Shown here: one piece after another, positions 15,306-53,998 of the stretch | Position numbering within the stretch: the stretch's first letter is position 1 | Layout of the letters: every line of letters starts with the position of its first letter | DNA from: Fistulifera solaris | Taxonomy: Eukaryota; Bacillariophyta; Bacillariophyceae; Naviculales; Stauroneidaceae | Length of the DNA: 64,000 nt | Assembly (NCBI GenBank): GCA_030295235.1 | Contig: AP026162.1 | Coordinates: 1,054,001 to 1,118,000, forward strand | Direction: 5' to 3' | Program-made: the position numbers and the translations under genes | The notes under the pieces: model-generated | What the model was told of the DNA's origin: nothing | Databases searched by the model: none | What the model saw: the letters and a program-made list of their open reading frames with translations, nothing else

Positions 15306-15642
15306 GATTATCGGGGTACGGGTTGGATATAAGACAAAATCTCACGAGAACTATGTCTTTTCTGGTAATAATGTTAGCGTCAAAGGATTGGCTTTGGTTT
15401 GTCGGTGTACAAGAAGAATAACAACAAAGACAAAAGTCGAGTTGCGTTTTTATAAGCGGCAATGGCTTCACAGCGAGAACCCGGATGTTAGATATTTCGA
15501 CGCTATCCATTTATCGAGTATGTTTGACTGCAATGCTACAGAGATATGAAATAATAACATAGCTCATTAACACTAATAAAAGTTGTTCACAATCAATTCG
15601 AAACCAAAACGTAGAAAGGAGCAAAGATACAATGCTTCGAAT

Positions 15643-15686
15643 ATCTACGTGACATTCACGTAGGCCCTGTAGGAATTTTATCGATG
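15643..15686 (+). repeat. Palindromic CTACGTGA/TCACGTAG block, copy 1
   Basis: Reads TCTACGTGACATTCACGTAG, then GGCCCTGTAGGAATTTTATC. The first 20 bases form an inverted repeat whose arms hold ACGT cores. Nearly the same block recurs 216 bp downstream. Confidence 0.75.
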
Positions 15687-15858
15687 TAGGCAGCAACCGG
15701 TACTTTTCGAATTCGACCTCATCAATTCTCGGGTCCGACAGCGACAAAATTCATCGAAACATACATCAACGTATCTTCATATCTATCATAAGCAAGAATC
15801 GACACGGAATCGGAACACCAAACATCAAAGAGACAACAGATGCAACTATGAAAATAAT

Positions 15859-15901
15859 GTCTACGTGAATTTCACGTAGGCCCCGTAGGGAAATTTATCG
15901 A
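15859..15901 (+). repeat. Palindromic CTACGTGA/TCACGTAG block, copy 2
   Basis: Reads TCTACGTGAATTTCACGTAG, then GGCCCCGTAGGGAAATTTAT. It differs from copy 1 by a few bases and lies 199 bp upstream of the RPN6 start codon. Confidence 0.75.
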
Positions 15902-17833: not shown

Positions 17834-18043
17834 AAAATGTGGGGACGTTATGTTTTCACACTACCAGAAAATGTGGGAATGTGTTTTTCAAGTTACCAGA
17901 AAATGTGGGAACGGGGTGTTTCCACATACCAGAAAATGTGGGAAAGTGGCGTTTTCAAGCTACCAGAAAATGTGGGAATGTGTTATTTTCACGCTACCAG
18001 AAAATATGGGTACTTGGTGTTGACGTTACCAGAAAATGTGGGC
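17834..18043 (+). repeat. Seven-copy minisatellite, 32-36 bp unit
   Basis: Seven tandem copies of a unit that starts AAAATGTGGGAATG and ends near TTTTCACGYTACCAG, with variable middle bases. The unit changes length slightly between copies, so it is not a coding repeat. It lies about 180 bp upstream of the CS-domain gene's start codon and shares its core with the copies at 405-500. Confidence 0.9.
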
Positions 18044-31276: not shown

Positions 31277-32723
31277 GTTGATGAATATTAGTTGTGTGCT
31301 ATTCCCGCTCCTTTTGTTGTTGAGGGGCAAACGATTTTGTGCGTGCTGTGCGATCGCAAAAAAAGAAGGCACATCAACATCACGCAGGCAGCAGGCAGGC
31401 GAAAATGTCATTCGTCTAGCCGTCGTACGTTCGATTAAAGTACATGACAATATGGATTATGCACTTTGAGAACGATGCGCACGTTTTCTGACTTTATGTA
31501 AAGCGAAATCTCCAAACGCTGTAAAGATCATACTATTGATTGAGGTATTATGGTTCAGCAAATAGGAGGGATAGCGGGCTTTTAACTCCGAAATAGATAT
31601 TCATGACTGAAATTCAGTCGTGATGAAGTTAATGTATGTTGTATGTACACTTGGGGATATAATAAATATTAGTGTGAGAATGTTCCGCGGTATACCTCTC
31701 GCCGCCATCTATCCTCGCGTGCCGTGTAAAAAAAAGCTAAAAATTATTGCACGGTGAAAAGACAAACAGAAACTACCAATCATGCAAACGAATGAAGGCT
31801 ACCATGGTAGGTAGGCAGCAGTCCGGCTCGGCCGAACATGGGTGACTCTTGACTGAGACTCAGTCGTGGAAAAAGTAACATACATGTCAACCTATAGTAA
31901 TCAGAGACAATTATCCATAATGTACTATCAGGTACCGGTAAGCCACAAGCTTTACTGTACTATTGTAAGAGGTAAGAGGAACATGTAAGGAGCTAAGGTT
32001 ATAAGGGTTTGCGAGATCAAAAACAATCAAGTAGGATCTTCTTGTTTACAGAATGAACAAATTGATTAAGGTCCTCTTTGGTGAGCGTTGATTCGCATTG
32101 TGGATTGGAGAATCTTGTTGCAGACTGTAGTGTTGTTGTGAAGAATTTTTGACGTCAAATGACAAACGCAACTGAATCTTACAAAGGAGCCTATACTCCA
32201 ACCGTCCCATTTGCTTGCAATCAAGGAACGTAGATGCTCTTTGTCTCTTTTTATTGGCTTAATTTTCAAAGCTGAATCATAGTTTCTTGTTCATATATCT
32301 CCGTACAAATTCCTGATTTTCGCCTAGCTCACAATCTCGTCAATAAACGCCATCCAATTACTTGTTGACCTTAGATCCACTAAATCTTCGACTAGTTCTC
32401 CTAAAGAACATCGCGTGATTTACTAATCAAGATTCTTTTTCTTTCATCGGCCACGAACTATCTCAACTTATGATGTCAATGATTTACATTATAGTAGCCC
32501 ACAACTCGAACAACTCATGCGGATCAAGGACGCAAAGACTCTGGCAGCATCGATTTGTAAGACACCTAGTACTATTGTCCTTTCCTGAATAAACAGTTAA
32601 ATAAAAACCTAATTCGAATAAGGCCTAGGTTACCGAACGCGGGTAGTTCTCGCGAGTAAGAGAATGCAAAAAAATTGCCATGTGTGACACGGAAGCAAAG
32701 CCTGATAGTCGACTCAAAGCCCA
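31277..32723. other. 1.4-kb intergenic stretch with two palindromic elements
   Basis: It contains CATGACTGAAATTCAGTCGTG at 31602-31622, stated here only as a palindrome centre, and a second TTGACTGAGACTCAGTCGTG at 31849. No gene or tRNA is supported. The rest is AT-rich without an evident pattern. Confidence 0.45.
31601..31670 (-). repeat. Dispersed palindromic element, reverse orientation
   Basis: TCATGACTGAAATTCAGTCG is a near-perfect inverted repeat. It is followed by an ACTTGGGGATATAATAAAT block that matches, in reverse, the TTACTATAGxCxAAAG block preceding forward copies such as 53790. One of about a dozen copies in the window. Confidence 0.65.
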
Positions 32724-35306: not shown

Positions 35307-36966
35307 TTACGATAAATTCATTGCTTCGCCATCTTGTTCGACTGCCCGTTTCCTTTGGTGCTTGCGACGCCACTTTCGGTTCGTCTGACATATTTCGCCT
35401 TCCATTTGCTGTTTCAATTTCTCAACTGTCATTCTTCCGTAGCGAGTATGCGAGAATGCTTGAGCTGTCACAGCTACTGATCTTTCGCTGATGCATCGAA
35501 TCGAAACTTCAATTTGAAAGTGTCCTTCGAATGGTAGCAAACTTCTCCGTTGCTCTGGTGAAAAGTGATCATGTACGATTTGTTGCAGTCTAGGTGGAAG
35601 TGTGTCATCTCCAAACCAAGCGGATGAGTTTAGAGCTTCATGTTGCTCTTCGATGATTGCAATATTTCGTTCCGCATTCCATCGGATCATGAGCTGTCGC
35701 CCCTGTACTCCTCCTTCGCAATAAGCTTGCACCCGCGATGCAATTTCGCTTATTTGCTGCTGATTGTTGAGGTTCAAGCCGCCGACGTCGACATTGAACG
35801 ACCAGAAGTCCGTATGAGCTAACGGAGATCGAATATGAGGCCGAAGAAAGGTCCAGGCCAAGAACCAACGGGTCATGTGACCTGGACCAAACTCGGTACT
35901 TTGAACGTGCGAAAAACCCAAGAGTTGTTCAAGAGCGTTCTTGAGCGTTGTCCAGGATGATTTTTTGCCGATCATCGACGAGCACCATTTAGGGGGCGGG
36001 ACTGATGCTGGTGCGCCAGCATTCGCAAATGACAACAAGCTTGATAAATACGCTCGAATACTGTCGCACAAGATATCCAAAACAAATCCCATTTCACCTC
36101 CCGGATAACTTCCTTCTGACACCGTCATGGCAGTTCGGTGTCGTCCATCGGCTCGCATTTGCGACATTTCACTGGGATTTTCGCTATCATAAAACGGAGG
36201 GTTGGTTATGCAGACATCAACTAATCGCGCTTCTGGAGGTAAATGGGCTAAACTACATTGAAGGGGTCCACAGTGATCGCGTGCCTGATCCATTGAGACC
36301 TGCACGATGTGCACAAAGGGAGTCAATTCTGGGTTTCCCTGAGCGTTCTGCCGGGCTAAATCTACCGATTCAGGATCGATTTCCGTCGCAAAAAAAAGCT
36401 CGCAGATACGGTTTGTGTCGGTGATGGCCCTGCTGATGGCTGGCGGCAAACAAGAGAGGATAAATGCAACTAGCCCCGGTCCCTATATCAAGCATGATTC
36501 CCGAGAGTTGATCTTGCATACTCATAAAGGGTGAAGTACGATAGCTGACTGGTACAAGGAGCGGTAATAACTCCGTTTGAATCCACCGAATGTAAAAGAA
36601 ACGATTAGGAACTGGAGGGCAGAGATGGTTAACCGGAATTCTCGGGAGTGACACGTGAAAGTGAACGTGCAACAAAGCTTTTGTCAGTGCAGCACTGAAA
36701 GAATGAGTCAAAGAAGCAACTAGCGAAGTGCTCTCTCCTCTTTGTTTGGCATTTCTTCTAGCGTTTTCCACCTCTTTCCAGGCTTTTCGGAAATCTGGAA
36801 ACTGGCTCGCAAGTTCTTCGAAATCGGGCGTAACTAGAGAGTTGAACAAAACACCGAAGTAGCCACAAGAGCAAGTGGCTGGTCGGCTACAAAGACACGC
36901 TTGCGGACCTTCCGTTACACTGGGAGGAGAAGCACGCCCTCGCTTCCTGCAATGAGATGACTCCAT
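35307..36966 (-). CDS. METTL16: METTL16-type RNA N6-adenosine methyltransferase
   Basis: The N-terminal family block is VTPDFEELASQFPDFRKAW. The SAM-binding motif is MLDIGTGASCIYPLL, followed by FFATEIDPESVDLARQN and the catalytic VDVCITNPPFYDS (NPPF). METTL16 methylates U6 snRNA and hairpins in SAM-synthetase mRNA in animals; a U6 role is the conserved part of that. The likely ATG is at 36966 (MESSHCRKRGR). The frame is open further upstream but only from a TTG. The A8 run at 36390-36397 shifts the frame as if one base were extra; reading seven instead gives the expected RAFFATEIDPE. The C-terminus carries a basic tail (NRKWRRKHQRKR). The 37-kb repeat array lies upstream. Confidence 0.88.
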
Positions 36967-37224
36967 TCCCTGTCTGTCGACTCTCGTGAACGATGCCACA
37001 CAAATCGTCGTCTGTGCGCGCTCAAGGTCTTCTCCCTCGTTTGCGCAGCTTTTCGGAAACGTTCCAGTCTGCTTCAATGCATCTACTCTCGATGACTGCA
37101 ATACTGAGTAACTGTGAAGTGCTTGTAAGGCTTACCAGGTAAACAAAGAAGCAACGGAACCCAGCATTTACAGCTTAGCCATCGTAAATCCATTTTTCAG
37201 CGGTCAGCGCGTTTTATCATGTTT

Positions 37225-37800
37225 TCGTCCCTTGTTGAAAAATGTTTCTATACTCCGTATATTTTCTGTTCATACAGAAATTCGGTGGTGGTCCAGAGAA
37301 TCTGGACCAGTTCTTTCGATCCTACCGAAATGCTGTGCGCGCTATGGAAAGTCAGAAGATGGTGTTGGGAATCATAGCGACACGATGTGCACGTTCCCGA
37401 TATTCTGGAAACTTTGTTTTTTTGGATCATAACGAAAGAAACTACATATTCCAGAAATTCTGGAAATGTTACTCTGTATAATTTCTGTTCATACAGAAAT
37501 TCTGGTGGTGGTCCAGAAAATCTGGACCAGTTCTTTCGATCCTACCGGAATGCTGTGCGCGCTATGGCGCTATGGAAAGTCAGAGGACGGTGTTGGGAAT
37601 CATAGCGACACAATGTGCACGCTCCAGAAATTCTGGAAACTTTGTTTTTTTGGATCACAACGAAAGAAACTGCAAATTCCAGAAATTCTGGAAATGTTAC
37701 TCCGTATAATTTCTGTTCATACAGAAATTCGGTGGTGGTCCAGAAAATCTGGACCAGTTCTTTCGATCCTACCGAAATGCTGTGCGCGCTACGGAAATTC
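37225..37800 (+). repeat. Tandem array, about 230 bp x 2.4, dyad-rich
   Basis: Repeated blocks include TTTCTGTTCATACAGAAATT, GTGGTCCAGAAAATCTGGAC and TCTTTCGATCCTACCG. Others are GTGCACGCTCCAGAAATTCT and GGAATCATAGCGACAC. Most blocks are inverted repeats. The motifs GTGCACGTTCC and ACAGAAATTCxGTGGT also occur, reverse-complemented, in the 41.3-42.8 kb array, so the two arrays are diverged members of one family in opposite orientation. Confidence 0.85.
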
Positions 37801-38003
37801 AGGGCACGGTGTTGCTTACAGCATATATTATGGCTTAGATTCATGATGTTTGTAATTTAGTTCAAATTGGCATTGTTCGTGTTTAATGAGCTGGTGGATT
37901 ATATCGACACATTGGCAAGTCAACAAGTTGCATCTTTTCAGCCGACAACACTCTCGGATTCTGTACTAAACTTACGACCCAAAGTGTTCTGCTTAGACAT
38001 TTG

Positions 38004-38025
38004 AGACTAGATTCCAGTCATGAGA
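38004..38025 (+). repeat. Dispersed palindromic element
   Basis: GACTAGATTCCAGTCATGAG preceded by ACCCAAAGTG. It matches the order of blocks in the other forward copies. Confidence 0.6.
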
Positions 38026-38255
38026 CGTGCACGAGTGCATGCAGTTAACGGTGCACCTTTCTTTCTTCCTGCTTCCTGCGGGCAGATTTCTTCCTGCGGG
38101 CAGACAGACGTTAGATCTTCTGAGCCTCGTTTTATTGTTTTTTTACTTACCAGGTAACGAACTGCGGGTCGTAGCTTTTAACAAATAAATAATTGCTTGA
38201 CGTTCATAGGAAACAACAACCTTCTCCGTGGCCTCCCTAATACTCTGGTTTCATT

Positions 38256-39182
38256 ATGCGGCTTTTCTCACGGAAATTGCTTTTTATCTTGCTGACATCG
38301 AATGCTTTGATTCATTGTATCGCTTCCACCGAAGAAGCTACGATCGACCTCGACGGTATAGCCACCGAGTCCTTGTCGGATGCAAACCCTGAAGTACCGG
38401 ATACAACAGCAACAGATGTCGATTCCCAAGAATCGAAAGCAGAAGCTACGCAACAAGATTCAAACGAAGAAAAGCCCGAAGAGCTGCCTCTTCAGTCAGG
38501 CCCATTCATTGATCTGTTTGGGCCTGTTCTCCTTTCGCTCGAAATGCTGGACGAAAAACATGCCCAATTAGCACCACAATTAACCAACGACGCTTTGAAA
38601 GGAAAAAAGGTTGTCGGTCTTTACTTCAGTGCAGACTGGTGCGGTCCGTGTCGTCAATTTACTCCGGAGTTAAATTCCTTTTACAGTAAGATGAACAAAA
38701 GGAGAGGTCGAAAAGACGAGTTTGAAATCGTTTGGATATCAAGATGTCGTGATACAAACTCGTACGGCCAATACTTTACGCAGATGGGTGGCTGGTTGGC
38801 CTTACCGCCCGAAGAAGCCATGGGGCAGCGCGGTGCGTGGTTGGGAGAGAAATTCAAAGTCAAGTCCATTCCCACTCTGGTTCTGTTAGACGACCTAGGA
38901 GTAAGTGTTTGTTGTTGAATGTACTGCTGTGAAACGAAAGGTCAATATATCATCTCATTTCATCCTTCTTAGAATGTTATCACACTAGATGGCCGCAACA
39001 AAATCCCACAAGACAAGGCTGGTATCGGATTTCCCTGGCGCAATCCCATTGCATCTCTTTACATAGCGTTGGTTCCTCGCACTTTGAGATTGATGATGAA
39101 ATCACAGATCATTGACGTGAAAGATAGGCTTTTGGGTCAGCTTGGGCGTATCTTACGACCAGGGCGTGCTAAAGTGGCTTAA
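38256..39182 (+). CDS. Secreted or ER nucleoredoxin (thioredoxin fold)
   Basis: Two exons, 38256-38900 and 38973-39182, with a 72-bp intron (donor GTAAGT, acceptor CTTAG), give 284 residues without a break. A signal peptide (KLLFILLTSNALIHCIAS) is followed by an acidic spacer. The thioredoxin-like domain contains WCGPC at residues 128-132 (GLYFSADWCGPCRQFTPEL). FEIVWISRCRD and SIPTLVLLDDLG are the segments that mark nucleoredoxin and tryparedoxin-type folds. The second exon adds NVITLDGRNKIPQDKAG, the usual end of the domain, and a basic tail. A dithiol oxidoreductase acting in the ER, plastid periphery or outside the cell is likely. It converges on the MBL-fold gene, 66 bp away. Confidence 0.87.
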
Positions 39183-39248
39183 GAAAGCTGCCGTTTGTAA
39201 TAAAGCTAGCATAATGATTGTCTACAATCGGTAAATAATATGTTAATT

Positions 39249-40488
39249 TTAATCGCTATCACCGTCGTTTAAGATGCCAAGTCGCTCGTAGATATCGCCA
39301 ATCATTTTGTATTGATCCAAAATCTCCAGTAAATCTCTTTTCCGTTCCTCATGGTCGCCATCCAGGAAAAGCGGATCCCCTCGAGCTGGTAAAACGACCT
39401 TAAAACGGTCCGCGTAACTTTGTACAAGCGACACTGCAGACTCTATCTGCCGACCGATGCCTCCTTTGTTGGTAGATATATACCCTCTACAATCCAAAGC
39501 CGGACCTGCTCCCCCAATGCCCATGTTTTCTTCGATGCGTGTATCTTCCACGGGGATGGTGTAACCGGAGAAGCATAGGTTCTGTGACGGAAATAGATAC
39601 GACATTGAACCAAAACTGTGCCCAGGAGTATACACAGCGACGATGTCCATAGAATCTTCCTTCAATCGAATGTCTTCCGGAGAAAACAAATCATTTTCGT
39701 TCAAATCTGCCTCTTGTTCCGCCTCCGTTTGTCCACTGAGGATGTCCTCGGCGAGATCGTCATCCCACTCCTCCACCGTCAGTGGTCGGCCCAACTCAGT
39801 AAAACTGGCATTGAAATAAGCTTCATTACCGATTGCATCCTTCAATCCAAAAGGTCCATATCCGTCGAAAATCTGTGTTACAAACGGCCGGCACTCACGT
39901 GGAATATCAAGTCGATATGCCACAACTTCCAGATCAGGTAGTGCCTCTTTCCAAAGCTTTAAATCGGACCGTCTTGCCGAATATATTGCAGGCGCACTAT
40001 CATAGTGGATAGCATCACGGTTCGTAATCAGCGCCAGAGCTAAGATCGATTCTTTTCCCAAGAATCGTTGTATTTGACCCAACAGTTGAGGAGAGTAGGG
40101 AGGAATGTCAATCATAGCATATCTTGCCGCGTGTACACTTCTGTCAGCTTCGCCTTCCTTTTTAGTTTTCGGTAAAGGAGATAACGGAACTAGGTATCGA
40201 ACAGGCTCAAAGGAGCCTGTGCGGACGGCAGTCGTCACCAGTTGCGCAACCCCCGTCAAGCCTTTGATCGGCACTACTTCCGTGACAAAACGATCTTTCG
40301 CCGAATTTTCAATTTCATCACTAACTGACACTCCTGTATTCGGTATTTGAAAGTCGCCTCTCTGTTCGGTCTCGTCGGCGTTGCTAGGTTCGGCAAAAGG
40401 CCATGTGACTTGAACGTTCGCGGCCAACTCCCGAAGCGTCAGCGAAGTTATTGGACCTTTTGTGGGGCGATTGTGAATGAGAATGCAT
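39249..40488 (-). CDS. MBL-fold-like protein with an eroded metal site
   Basis: The open frame of 392 codons starts only at a TTG (40427). Upstream an ATG at 40488 opens a frame that joins it if the T4 run 40458-40461 has one base too many, giving LTLRELAANVQVTWPFAEP, so I place the start there. The layout resembles the beta-lactamase-like hydrolase fold. A sheet ends ALALITNRDAIHYDS where HxHxDH is normally found. VYTPGHSFGSMSYLFPSQN corresponds to TPGHTPGS, and CFSGYTI corresponds to the FTGDT strand. Most metal ligands are therefore replaced, with only the GHS histidine clear. It is probably non-catalytic or uses a different site. Function unknown. Confidence 0.6.
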
Positions 40489-41280
40489 TATCGATCAACT
40501 TCAGGACGAGTAGAAAGTGAATTGAGGCTGTTTTTATGTGCATGGTGATAACAAAAGTGACTTTCTAATTACAAAATTGTTATTGTTCTTTTCATTTTCA
40601 TCGCGCTCTTTTTCTTTTTTTTTGCGGTGGGGGAGAAAATGAAGCGGAACGAAAAGGATGACGGTCGACGTAAGGTTACGACAAGATCGAGAATTGAGCA
40701 TGTTGCATGTTGCTGACGCCTGTGATGACGGCGGAAAAGTGAGCGAGTCAGTCGTCGATCGATACTCCCGACTCCCGATGAACAAGGAGAAATCTTGCTC
40801 CTGACGCCATCATCTGCCATTCCTTCGTGGATTAGTTTCGGTCCGTTCGACCATGAGAGGATTGAAGTAGATGAAACATTAAATCAAACTAACTCCAAAA
40901 GAAGTACGGTAGCAAGAGGGCTTTCATCGCGGATGCAAGAACTTAAAATCCTTGCAAAGTGCAAAGAAGAAAACGAAATGACTCATGACTCAATCCAGTC
41001 ATGACAAAGGTCGCCTTCACTTTGGGGCTATAGTAAATCAAAGTGTATAATAGTGATCTCGAAGGCTTTTTCTCGTATTTCTGCAATGACTCATGAAAAG
41101 AATCGTCGATGTGGTGATTAAATAGGTGCTGGCCGAGTTCGCTTTACGCGTCATTTTATTATTTGACGTCGAAGAGCCTTGCGAAACGTTGTCTTTTCTT
41201 ATTTACTACTGACCAGAGTGTTTTGTCCGTTTTCTCCACGACTGCACTTCAGTCATGAGTCAATATCCTTCCGAGCGACA
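40489..41280. other. Intergenic stretch with two dispersed palindromic elements
   Basis: Contains elements at 40983-41005 (reverse) and 41237-41260 (forward), about 230 bp apart. No gene is supported. Confidence 0.5.
40983..41060 (-). repeat. Dispersed palindromic element, reverse orientation
   Basis: CATGACTCAATCCAGTCATG, followed by CACTTTGGGGCTATAGTAAA. The second block is the reverse complement of the TTACTATAG...CAAAG block that precedes forward copies. Confidence 0.7.
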
Positions 41281-41290
41281 GTGTTGCCTA
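41200..41290 (+). repeat. Dispersed palindromic element, forward orientation
   Basis: TTTACTACTGACCAGAGTG, then TTTTCTCCACGACTG, then CACTTCAGTCATGAGTCA, then TATCCTTCCGAGCGACA. It aligns block by block with 53785-53860. Confidence 0.7.
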
Positions 41291-41317
41291 CAATTCCTTC
41301 GTTCAGCAAAATATCTT

Positions 41318-42790
41318 GGCCCTAGAATGATGAAACGACCCAAAGCACCGATTCCAGAATTTCTGGAACGTGCACAAATTGTCTGCGTGACGCGAAACAT
41401 CGATGATTCCAGTATTTCTGGAACTACCACAGAATTTCTGTTTGACACAAAACCTCGGATTCCAGAATTTCTGGAACGACCACTGAGTTTCTGTAATACT
41501 CAAAACATTAATTCCAGAATTTCTGGAATGTGCCTAGAATGATGATACGACCCAAAGCACCGATTCCAGAATTTCTGGAACGTGCACAAACTGTCTGCGT
41601 GACGCGAAACATCGATGATTCCAGTATTTCTGGAACTACCACAGAATTTCTGTTTGACACAAAAACCTCGGATTCCAGAATTTCTGGAACGACCACTGAG
41701 TTTCTGTAATACTCAAAACATTAATTTCAGAATTTCTGGAATGTGCCTAGTATGATGAAACGACCCAAAGCACCGATTCCAGAATTTCTGGAACGTGCAC
41801 AAACTGTCTGCGTGACGCGAAACATCGATGATTCCAGTATTTCTGGAACTACCACAGAATTTCTGTTTGACACAAAAACCTCGGATTCCAGAATTTCTGG
41901 AACGACCACTGAGTTTCTGTAATACTCAAAACATTAATTCCAGAATTTCTGGAATGTGCCTAGAATGATGATACGACCCAAAGCACCGATTCCAGAATTT
42001 CTGGAACGTGCACAAATTGTCTGCGTGACGCGAAACATCGATGATTCCAGTATTTCTGGAACTACCACAGAATTTCTGTTTGACACAAAAACCTCGGATT
42101 CCAGAATTTCTGGAACGACCACTGAGTTTCTGTAATACTCAAAACATTAATTCCAGAATTTCTGGAATGTGCCTAGAATGATGATACGACCCAAAGCACC
42201 TATTCCAGAATTTCTGGAACGTGCACAAACTGTCTGCGTGACGCGAAACATCGATGATTCCAGTATTTCTGGAACTACCACAGAATTTCTGTTTGACACA
42301 AAAACCACGGATTCCCGAATTTCTGGAACGACCACTGAGTTTCTGTAATACTCAAAACATTAATTCCAGAATTTCTGGAATGTGCCTAGAATGATGAAAC
42401 GACCCAAAGCACCGATTCCAGAATTTCTGGAACGTGCACAAACTGTCTGCGTGACGCGAAACATCGATGATTCCAGTATTTCTGGAACTACCACAGAATT
42501 TCTGTTTGACACAAAAACCTCGGATTCCAGAATTTCTGGAACGACCACTGAGTTTCTGTAATACTCAAAACATTAATTCCAGAATTTCTGGAATGTGCCT
42601 AGAATGATGATACGACCCAAAGCACCGATTCCAGAATTTCTGGAACGTGCACAAACTGTCTGCGTGACGCGAAACATCGATGATTCCAGTATTTCTGGAA
42701 CTACCACAGAATTTCTGTTTGACACAAAAACCCCGGATTCCAGAATTTCTGGAACGACCACAGAGTTTCTTTAATACTGAATACAAAAAT
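41318..42790 (-). repeat. Seven-copy tandem array, 213-bp unit
   Basis: The marker CCCAAAGCACC recurs at 41339, 41551, 41764, 41977, 42190, 42403 and 42616, giving spacings of 212, 213, 213, 213, 213 and 213. The units differ by only a few bases. Each holds four dyads of the type TTCCAGAATTTCTGGAA (one a TTCCAGTATTTCTGGAA variant) plus ACAGAATTTCTGT. The minus strand shows a 62-codon open frame in most units, which I take to be a by-product of the repetition. There is no transposase, no terminal structure and no flanking gene overlap. Confidence 0.95.
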
Positions 42791-42978
42791 TTCAGAATAT
42801 TAACGAAAGTTTAGCGAATGCAATACGGAGTATTTAAGCACATTACAGTAACTGTAGATCAGAGTAACTGTAAGTTCTAGGTTCTAGTAGGCCACCGTGC
42901 GTTATGAGTGAGAAAACTTCAGATTACGGAGCCGTACTTAATTTCTTGACGTCATTCGAACATAGGCGTCACTCTTTT

Positions 42979-45900
42979 TCAGCCTTCTATTAAACAATCA
43001 AACTTCTTTTTGCTACCATTTTGATGCTCGGTTGCCGTACAGCTGGGCAAGTTCTTGATGTGGTCTGACTTGGTATCGACCACACTCCATTGTACGCCGT
43101 CGACACTTTCATTGCCCACAAGGAAATGCTTACAAAAGTCTTCCTTAGTCATTGTAAAATCAAAGTTCGATTCCAGTGCAGATAATGTCCGCAGCCAATC
43201 GCGATAAGCCGCTTCAACTGTTCGAAAGCCTATGAGCACTTGTCGTGAAGTGATATCCTCTTTAACTACCGCGAGATCTGGAACAAGCAAGAGGTCGCTG
43301 CAAGTAGATGGATCCGTTAACCCAACGTTATCGATCGCCACGATAATTTTCCTCCACTTGTTTCCGTCCAAAATCACATAATCGTCGACAGAGCTTAATG
43401 CATCGTCCAGTTTTGCAATTGTGAAACCACAACAGTTTACATAATTGAAAGCTCGCTCGACCGAGTCGAAGAAATAACTTTGCTCGTCAACGCATACTTC
43501 GATGAAAGCTTTCAAATTGTCAGTTTTTGACGTCTCCTTTTCGACAAAATCATCTTTATTCTTTTCGTCCTGCTCTTCGAATCTGTAAAAGATGCCGACT
43601 CCGAATAACAATTTACAATCTTATCGTCCTCGTTTTCCTGGCCTGCGTCAGATGCCGCATCCCTTGCCAGCGAATCAAAGAAAACAAGTCCCTTTTGCAA
43701 GTCATCGAGGAACACCCACCGATAGCCGAAAATAAGAATTTTCGGATCCTCCGAAGCCATCAGAATGAGCCGGCGGATCTTCATTGAATTATCGATATCG
43801 AATCTGTCCCACTCACACGGATAATTCAGATGCAAAAACAAGTTCATGACAGCAGCTATTGTCTGCATCGTAGCATACAGTTTTATCACCCGTCCTGTAT
43901 CAGGATCAAGGACGGCGACCGGACGGCCTTTCGTACCCGCAGAGGTAGCAACAATTTTATGTCGTACAGGAGGTCTCGTCGAAAGCGAGCTCGGGGCTGA
44001 GGCTTGTCGTTTCTGCTGTAACATCATCTCGTTACGTGACAATTCTTTTTGACTCTTTCAGACAGAAGGTGATCAAAGCTTTTTGAGCGGATACTAGTGG
44101 CACGTCTTTTCTGTACTTGCGCCATTCGATACACTGCACTACCCTCACGGTTAAAAATAAAACAGTTATGCCAAACAAGTTCTAGGTCCTCCAAGATTGC
44201 TATGAGAGGGTCTTCGACTGGCGTCGCTGAAGATTTGAAGCGAGCAAAGTAGACTCCATCTACGATGGACTTGGCTATGGTTCCAAGATCCATGGGATTC
44301 TTTACGATGGTAGGATAACTTGGAAACTGGATGACGTCCACTGGATCGCAAAATACTTTTCCAAAATCATAGTCCATCAAAGTCAGGAGCATTTCATATA
44401 TGATGCTGAAAATGTAAATTGGGATTGGATCATCTCCTTTGGATCCGCATTTGTCGAATGCTTTCATTGTCTGTTCCAGATGTTTGGATCCATCCATAAC
44501 ATCCTCTTGCATGCCACTTTTCTCGTTTCTGCAAGAAGGACATTCCCAAAGGTCGCTTGTCTCAATAGAATCGTCTGCTATACAAGCACGATGGAATGCC
44601 CGGGGGCAATAGTCACAACACAAGAGATTTCCCACGGCCATACAAACGTTGCAATAATCCACGCTTCCATCTTCGACGACTGTTTCGCTTCCATCATGAA
44701 CTGAATCATCCAACAAAACCGCTTTAGTCTGCGTGACGTCAGTGTCCTGGCTCACAAATGAACCGTCTTTTGTATAAACAGTTGCGTATATCACGTCTGA
44801 TCCTGGATCAATGTCAACGCCCTTGAAGACTTCTCGCGGAAATTCTGCAGATGGGACTTTCGGTACCGATGGACGCTCAGCAAGAGAGACTCGCCTTTTC
44901 CCTCTCCGCTTGTCCGTTTTTACAACCAACGTTCGTCTTCGATCTAAAATATCGTCAAAAACTACATTATCAATTGCCACTGCCTGTTTGTCGTGTTCAA
45001 AGCGAAACTGACGGCTCAATTTATGAAGTACACTGAAACATGACTTGCAATCGCAACACAACGTGCAAATGGGACAGTGTGGATTAGCATAGGAAGAATC
45101 TGTAGCGGATGGAAAGAAAGCTTTTAAATGGTCAAAGCACACCGCATGATTGCCAATGGAACAGGGCAAGCGACATTCCATCTTCTTGTCGCAAAGATGA
45201 CAGGAAGTGACCTCGGCCGCCATCGCAATGTCGGTACTAGTATTGCTATTCTGAGCAATCTCCGAGTTCGCCTTAACCTCAATTTCCAACGCTGCTTGAA
45301 GTCTTCGCTGAATCTCTTCGAAATATGTGGAATCCTCTATCTCACCGTCGCCATCGGAAAAAGACTCTCGTTTACGCTTTACTGGTGGTCTTCCACGATT
45401 GGCAATCTTTTCTGGTTGAGGAGCTCGTATTATGCCGGAAGGCTTACGACCCCGAGTTTTTTGCGTTGAATACCAGGCTCCGCCACGTTTTGCTCCGGTC
45501 ACTTCGCCATATAAACAGGGCACATAAGACGGAGGTTTCTCTTGATAGTATAATTCACTTTGAAGAGATATCGGGGGAGAAAAAGAGCAGTTGTAAACGA
45601 AGGCTCGCAATTGACTTTGAATTGACTCCGAAAGCTGGTGCATTTCCTTGAACGACAGACCAAAGTTCTGAGCCACTTCTGCCGCGAATTGTAGAGGAGT
45701 TGATGTACTGTCATCACCGAGATCCCATGTAATAGTTTCTTTGTGAACGGCATCTTTCCCAGATCCGCCAAGCGGAAACTCAACTACGACGTTCGCTTTC
45801 AACTTTGGTTCGGTCAGATTATGATTAGTGTCGGTGGGTTCGACATCACACAAAAGTGCGCCCGAGCTTTCGTCACGCAATTCAGCCCCCAGTCGCCCCC

Positions 45901-53580: not shown

Positions 53581-53998
53581 TGGTCTAATAGCATAAAGCT
53601 TGCAGACAAATCGTCAGGGGGTATATACTTTATGATCAATGACAATGACAACGTCCTTGAATGACAAATGCACTCATTCAAATAATAATATTGCATGTTG
53701 CATACCAGTAATATCCGGGTACCCCTTGCGAATATCCCTATGTTTTAGAACAGAATATCCGTCTGATCAAAAAAAATAATACTTACTATAGTCAAAAGAG
53801 TAAGTCAACTTTTCCACGACTGCATTTCAATCATGAATCAGTATTCTTTCCAACGACATACCGGTACCTGGTAGACCCCTCTTTTGGATTGACACTGATG
53901 CAAATGCTCGCAGTCAAGGTGCAATCAACTTCTGTATCGAACCATCATAGATATGAGACAATAAACTGCAAAGTAATGTGGAATCACTGCTAACTTAT
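53581..53998. other. Intergenic stretch with a palindromic element and TACCTGGTA
   Basis: It contains the dispersed element at 53785-53860 and the TACCTGGTA motif at 53865-53873. It separates RPL4 from the large gene; both are on the minus strand. Confidence 0.5.
53785..53873 (+). repeat. Dispersed palindromic element, forward, with TACCTGGTA
   Basis: TTACTATAGTCAAAAGAGTA, then TTTTCCACGACTG, then CATTTCAATCATGAATCAG, then TATTCTTTCCAACGACATA. It ends in CGGTACCTGGTAG. It shows that the palindrome and the TACCWGGTA motif can sit side by side. Confidence 0.7.

Follow-up and report, generated by a model that had tools for sequence, protein, structure and literature searches.

Two tandem arrays of a 17-bp palindromic dyad, one inverted with respect to the other, lie within 64,000 nucleotides of the diatom Fistulifera solaris (contig AP026162.1, positions 1,054,001 to 1,118,000; hereafter the window). 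We put at about even the chance that these arrays are homotypic clusters of binding sites controlling the adjacent genes, with a protein of the heat-shock factor (HSF) type as the most likely binder. A homotypic protein-binding cluster is the best reading of the sequence because the symmetric site was kept through older duplications and because dense copies of it stand upstream of genes. It is also one of the options named in a sequence-only reading of this DNA. One of the arrays, array 1, had already been picked out by that reading; its four-subunit structure, the selective conservation of its dyad and the inverted homologous array are additions to that account.

Organization of the arrays

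Array 1 spans about 1.5 kb between genes (Table 1). Tandem Repeats Finder assigns it a period of 213, with 6.9 copies and 97% matches over its whole extent, and reports a separate 52-bp period with 64% matches. The units start at 41321, 41533, 41746, 41959, 42172, 42385 and 42598, a spacing of 212 once and then of 213 five times. The sequence-only reading counted seven near-identical units and about 28 dyads; the period of 212/213 bp and the density of long dyads stand, but there are six full units and a partial seventh, which decays within its fourth subunit from about 42760, and the long dyads number 27. Pairwise identity among the six full units is 97.2-99.5%, in keeping with the recent expansion that it proposed. 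It was also right that the array is neither a gene nor CRISPR-like: stops interrupt all six frames, which rules out a coding repeat, and, where a CRISPR array would have identical short repeats between unrelated spacers, here the entire 212/213-bp units repeat, spacers included. ARAGORN (bacterial code) found no tRNA or tmRNA.

The dyad itself is highly uniform. Eighteen of the 27 long dyads in array 1 are exact copies of TTCCAGAANTTCTGGAA and the other nine carry one mismatch, seven of these being the B-type TTCCAGTATTTCTGGAA. When up to three mismatches are allowed, TTCCAGAANTTCTGGAA has 35 matches in the window (27 in array 1, six in array 2 and two elsewhere), whereas 100 shuffled windows gave 0.57 on average and never more than 4, so that motif copies far above chance are gathered in a tandem array, as in a homotypic cluster. 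The dyad count and Tandem Repeats Finder together bear out the tandem array as real.

Each 212/213-bp unit consists of four subunits, A to D, whose alignment points to a single ancestral module, in which a CAC-type start bearing a short dyad is followed by an A-rich linker and then by the long dyad. The short dyad ACAGAATTTCTGT forms the start of subunit C and is degenerate in A, B and D.

Array 2 has the same order of dyad, linker and short dyad when read on the minus strand. It contains six matches to the long dyad (up to three mismatches) and one more C-type dyad (37289-37309). In the C-position dyad listed in Table 1 the outer bases differ from those of array 1 on both arms and stay complementary, and the innermost pair is broken. 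One array 2 dyad sits in a 25-base match to array 1 that has 24 identities and extends 8 bases past the dyad. Two short mechanical open reading frames (ORFs) overlap array 2, which we take to be non-coding from its likeness to array 1. Degenerate modules were sought in the rest of the window, where the best nhmmer match outside both arrays had an E value of 1.

Table 1. Coordinates of the arrays, their parts and the neighboring genes within the window
Feature	Position	Strand	Description
Array 1	41321-42798	+	27 long dyads (TTCCAGAATTTCTGGAA and variants) in six full 212/213-bp units plus a seventh that decays
Example unit of array 1	41533-41745	+	Subunits A (52 bp), B (55), C (54) and D (52), one long dyad each
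Decayed D subunit, right edge of array 1	42759-42806	+	Dyad remnant at 42790-42806, TTTCAGAATATTAACGA
Array 2	37251-37791	-	Period 219/228 bp, about 2.4 units; opposite-strand homologue of the array 1 unit
C-position dyad of array 2	37509-37529	-	TGGTCCAGAAAATCTGGACCA
ORF overlapping array 2	37466-37846	+	126 aa, short mechanical ORF
ORF overlapping array 2	37542-37844	-	100 aa, short mechanical ORF
Methyltransf_10 (RNA methyltransferase) gene	35307-37101	-	Two overlapping ORFs; Pfam match
Nucleoredoxin-like gene ORF (Thioredoxin_8)	38256-38918	+	Pfam match; array 2 ends 465 bp upstream of the ATG
ORF with no Pfam match	39249-40427	-	Apparent start (that of the ORF) about 0.9 kb from array 1, which lies upstream
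Gene without assigned family	42979-44042	-	Two overlapping ORFs; 3' end about 180 bp right of array 1

Conservation of the dyad and descent of the arrays

What has been kept as the module diverged? Among subunits A to D, 16 of the 17 columns of the dyad are invariant, compared with 10 of the 38 columns elsewhere. The subunits were chosen by their dyads, which favors the dyad in this comparison, and a permutation test answers the bias in part: when the columns were permuted 200000 times, 10 permutations produced a 17-column run as conserved (16 or more columns invariant), and the palindrome occupies the same columns as the conserved block. The invariance among A to D and the permutation result therefore indicate that the dyad persisted as the rest of the module changed. 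Pairwise identity among the seven distinct dyads of both arrays is 0.92 within the dyad, 0.52 in the next 15 bp and 0.36 in the preceding 6 bp. For the older divergence, that among A to D and between the two arrays, the motif has thus been kept while its flanks diverged.

The recent units behave differently. Among the seven of them (the last truncated after 170 bp), nine columns vary, and two of the nine lie within dyads, although dyads account for 32% of the unit. Recent constraint is therefore not visible, and this counts against strong selection today. Such a pattern could be expected of a functionless intergenic minisatellite, in which the dyads would be retained through recent duplication or through slippage promoted by the palindromes. 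The near identity of the units and the failure of the variable columns to avoid dyads favor such an origin, as do other local duplications in the window, spaced 216-246 bp. However, the older divergence specifically spares the dyads, and three of the four (A, C and D) are in register between the inverted arrays, the B dyad having been lost in array 2. We regard the minisatellite as an improbable explanation.

The two arrays share more than their dyads. They align in inverted orientation over 412 columns with 65% identity (blast) and, when the dyads were masked, 1 of 500 spacer shuffles reached the real inter-array score. Independent origin of the arrays is rejected because their spacers are homologous. 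An inverted segmental duplication that included the flanks is not supported: 133 of 500 shuffles reached the score of the outer flanks and 44 of 500 that of the inner flanks.

The remains of a foldback-type or other DNA transposon would also yield inverted homologous arrays, its long inverted terminal repeats being tandem arrays of transposase-binding dyads with the convergent genes inside. Foldback transposons have inverted termini made of tandem repeats, and like them the present arrays are inverted sets of subrepeats around a central segment, which together bracket 37251-42798. The 11-mer ATACGGAGTAT has only two exact matches in the window, inverted and at the outer array edges (37250-37260 on the minus strand and 42823-42833 on the plus strand); with up to two mismatches its 10 occurrences are at the level expected by chance (mean 9.95). 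Unlike foldback transposons, the locus has no target-site duplication or transposase within the flanks and ORFs tested. No direct word of 7-10 bases is shared by the outer flanks of 80 and 90 bp, a test that a shorter or shifted duplication would escape, and a scan of 40 of the 85 ORFs in the window showed no transposase domain. The outer flanks resemble each other no more than chance, as their shuffles show, and the bracketed nucleoredoxin-like gene looks cellular. A transposon is therefore a very unlikely source of the arrays.

The window holds other local repeats. A 46-bp repeat (87%) at 15640-15684 and 15856-15901, its copies 216 bp apart, contains the palindromes CTACGTGACATTCACGTAG and CTACGTGAATTTCACGTAG and shortly precedes the RPN6 proteasome-subunit ORF (16100 onward, plus strand). 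The palindromes GACTGAAATTCAGTC and GACTGAGACTCAGTC, at 31601-31622 and 31847-31868, are 246 bp apart and lie outside marked ORFs. A dispersed motif like CACGACTGnAnTTCAnTCATGA was seen by eye at about 538, 782, 1008, 31601, 31847, 41240 and 53816, one of these being just left of array 1, and 41232-41280 matches 53810-53858 at 82% over 49 bp. A tandem duplication at 501-1028, with a period of 229-242, overlaps the start of a zinc carboxypeptidase-like ORF (994 onward, plus strand). A 34-bp tandem repeat of AAAATGTGGGAACGTGGTGTTTTCACGCTACCAG, with 6.3 copies, occupies 17834-18042 at the start of a CS-domain ORF (18036 onward, plus strand), and diverged relatives of it lie 17 kb away at 397-506. 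Intergenic repeat spacings are alike, being 213 in array 1, 219/228 in array 2, and 216, 242 and 246 elsewhere; of the 10 further local pairs listed, the other seven comprise two with roughly double that spacing (471-473) and five with spacings of 66-178. Spacings of about 213-246 bp are near the nucleosome repeat length.

Candidate binding proteins

The sequence-only reading compared the dyad with a heat-shock element in which one base separates the inner half-sites, and that spacing is confirmed. It also offered a STAT-like site, which fails on spacing, since TTC and GAA are separated by three bases in STAT sites and by two in the dyad. AGAAnTTCT occurs 26 times in array 1, four times in array 2 and three times in the rest of the window, and TTCnnGAA, a two-unit arrangement, occurs 46, six and 36 times, respectively. 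GAAnnTTC is absent from both arrays, and neither the three-unit element GAAnnTTCnnGAA nor its reverse occurs in array 1, array 2 or the rest of the window. The canonical heat-shock element, with at least three alternating nGAAn units and two-base gaps, is thus found in neither array; the dyad is like it in its outer TTCnnGAA pairs, as in TTCTAGAA, and unlike it in the one-base inner gap and in having no GAAnnTTC and no three-unit element.

Sites reported for HSF-type proteins come closer. The site of the HSF-type Sfl1 in fungi is described as an inverted repeat AGAA-n-TTCT, in a passage that does not state n as one base (PMC3098271, citing Conlan and Tzamarias 2001). Taking n as one base, the arrays contain this inverted repeat; the core AGAA-n-TTCT is common to both, with a one-base gap here. 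Unlike the Sfl1-type site, the present core, a putative binding site, lies within a 17-bp palindrome that is present in 27 copies in a stramenopile. In Phytophthora infestans, a stramenopile, HSFs are reported to bind GAATTC with no gap, TTCNGAA with a gap of one base and TTCTAGAA with two (PMC11267843). HSFs are given as the largest family of transcription factors in Phaeodactylum tricornutum, with 67 of 196 members (PMC4827209). An HSF-type binder is favored, with moderate confidence, because of the abundance of AGAAnTTCT and TTCnnGAA, the Sfl1 and Phytophthora sites and the number of HSFs in Phaeodactylum.

Several points are counted against this explanation. The B dyad has been lost in array 2, and the one-base-gap site of Phytophthora, TTCNGAA, has the opposite order from the GAAnTTC found here. 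The motifs given for Candida albicans Sfl1p are TtCtaGaA and TCGAACCC (PMC3744398), and therefore a one-base gap is not general for this type of protein. A scan of 40 of the 85 ORFs in the window detected no HSF domain. In addition, the C-type dyad of array 2 is without the outer TTC/GAA triplets, contrary to what a strict HSF reading predicts.

That C-type dyad would suit a different symmetric factor, and binding clusters for another dimeric, non-HSF protein, which would read an extended palindrome with the core CAGAnnnTCTG or TCCAGAnTTTCTGGA, are unlikely but deserve serious consideration. Across the seven distinct dyads 13 of the 17 positions are invariant, namely TCCAG and TTTCTGGA, the center being always T in module orientation, and this is wider than the TTC/GAA triplets. 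Against a non-HSF factor stand the reports of TTCnnGAA and AGAA-n-TTCT as HSF-type sites in stramenopiles and fungi (PMC11267843, PMC3098271) and the rank of the HSFs in Phaeodactylum (PMC4827209).

The dyads could instead act as structure, by forming RNA hairpins or DNA cruciforms; a hairpin-forming region was among the options of the sequence-only reading. The 213-nt unit folds as RNA with -53.2 kcal/mol (z -3.4, none of 200 shuffles being as good), and the array 2 C-type dyad folds as DNA with -8.9 kcal/mol (z -4.6), its symmetric differences preserving the pairing. However, the common 17-bp dyad reaches only -4.8 kcal/mol as DNA, a good fold score is expected of any perfect palindrome, and no Rfam family matches at the gathering threshold. 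A structural element appears exceedingly improbable. In array 1 the dyad spacings are near five helical turns and show loose phasing, with R 0.72 for a period of 10.5 bp; in array 2 they are not, and phasing is absent (R 0.00). For this reason we make no claim of helical phasing.

Returning to the HSF-type reading, palindromes outside the arrays were surveyed in about 20.2 kb that excluded the arrays and the 37 ORF stretches marked as coding. Three odd-centered palindromes with arms of at least 7 were present, the above CTACGTGAATTTCACGTAG, GACTGAAATTCAGTC and GACTGAGACTCAGTC, with the cores GAA, GAA and GAG (GAAnTTC twice and GAGnCTC once); they represent two different dyads, of which CTACGTGAATTTCACGTAG is one, with a near copy at a distance of 216 bp, and GACTGAAATTCAGTC and GACTGAGACTCAGTC, separated by 246 bp, are the other. 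Arms of at least 6 gave eight palindromes, two with a GAA core and one with GAG, and in the background 9 of 326 odd-centered three-base cores were GAA. The observation is post hoc and concerns few sites. It might nevertheless be imagined, as a tentative and rather unlikely extension, that the greatly expanded family of diatom HSFs reads long palindromes with a common GAA-n-TTC core, with its one-base gap, and differing flanks (the TTCCA-, CTACGT- and GACT-types), in which case the arrays would be amplified targets of one paralogue.

Viral contigs contained no relative of the arrays in searches with two exact patterns, and the sole match in a collection of prokaryote genomes, a simple tandem repeat of about 21 bp, TTCCAGAACTTCTGGAATGTA, in a Treponema MAG (L001:660-860), was judged by eye to be unrelated. 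Searches of the open literature for the dyad strings returned only unrelated papers, judged by title and the start of the abstract. No described diatom HSF site was among the matches listed, which were judged mostly by listing and came mostly from outside the subscription literature, and no array of this kind was among the matches listed for tandem repeats in Phaeodactylum. A palindrome already known in diatoms, ACACGTGC of iron-regulated genes (PMC3491386), is a different site from the present dyad.

Genomic setting and a possible regulatory role

The arrays bracket two convergent genes, and each array is upstream of one ORF start. The modules are antisense to the bracketed gene in both arrays and so have the same orientation relative to the genes. 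Inspection by eye places an intron of about 70 bp, GTAAGT...TTAG, at the end of the nucleoredoxin-like ORF, and the convergent ORF at 39249-40427 resembles beta-lactamase-fold chains very weakly (E 0.28). The Methyltransf_10 gene and the nucleoredoxin-like gene diverge across array 2, which is upstream of both. Genes of the window are eukaryotic, including RPN6, 60S L4, E2F, MRG and Ras-family genes, and the domains DUF6824 and DUF1824 were found among the scanned ORFs. DUF6824 is a diatom domain, although a literature search gave no paper on it as a diatom marker, and DUF1824 is a domain from photosynthetic organisms; together they point to a diatom as the likely host.

The arrays may have arisen and may act as follows. 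An ancestral module of about 52 bp, consisting of the long dyad, an ACCAC-type linker and the short dyad CAGAATTTCTG, would have multiplied into the four-site unit, which came to sit, inverted, upstream of the two convergent genes. The array 1 unit would then have been amplified recently to seven, most likely by unequal exchange. The dyads would be occupied by a symmetric DNA-binding protein, dimeric or oligomeric, and the many sites could allow cooperative binding. The nucleoredoxin-like gene and the gene at 39249-40427 would thereby come under strong or switch-like control, whether by activation or by repression. The binding protein would probably be an HSF-type factor reading GAA-n-TTC with its one-base gap and extended flanks, as reported for fungal Sfl1.

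That tandem clusters of sites can be regulatory is shown, by analogy, by the MORC3-repressed element of IFNB1, a tandem repeat with 45 PU.1 motifs that is a strong, normally silenced enhancer (PMC13373173). The diatom array is likewise a tandem repeat with dense copies of what would be a single factor's site near a gene. The IFNB1 element, in contrast, is mammalian, experimentally tested and silenced by MORC3, whereas the diatom array is read from DNA sequence and has longer symmetric sites.

An array of 27 sites, together with a diverged inverted homologue that has kept most of them, is a ready probe for finding the binder. The same probe could test whether the flanks around a shared GAA-n-TTC core are what separates one HSF paralogue from another. 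If the core pattern holds true genome-wide, it may be these flanks that distinguish the HSFs of diatoms.
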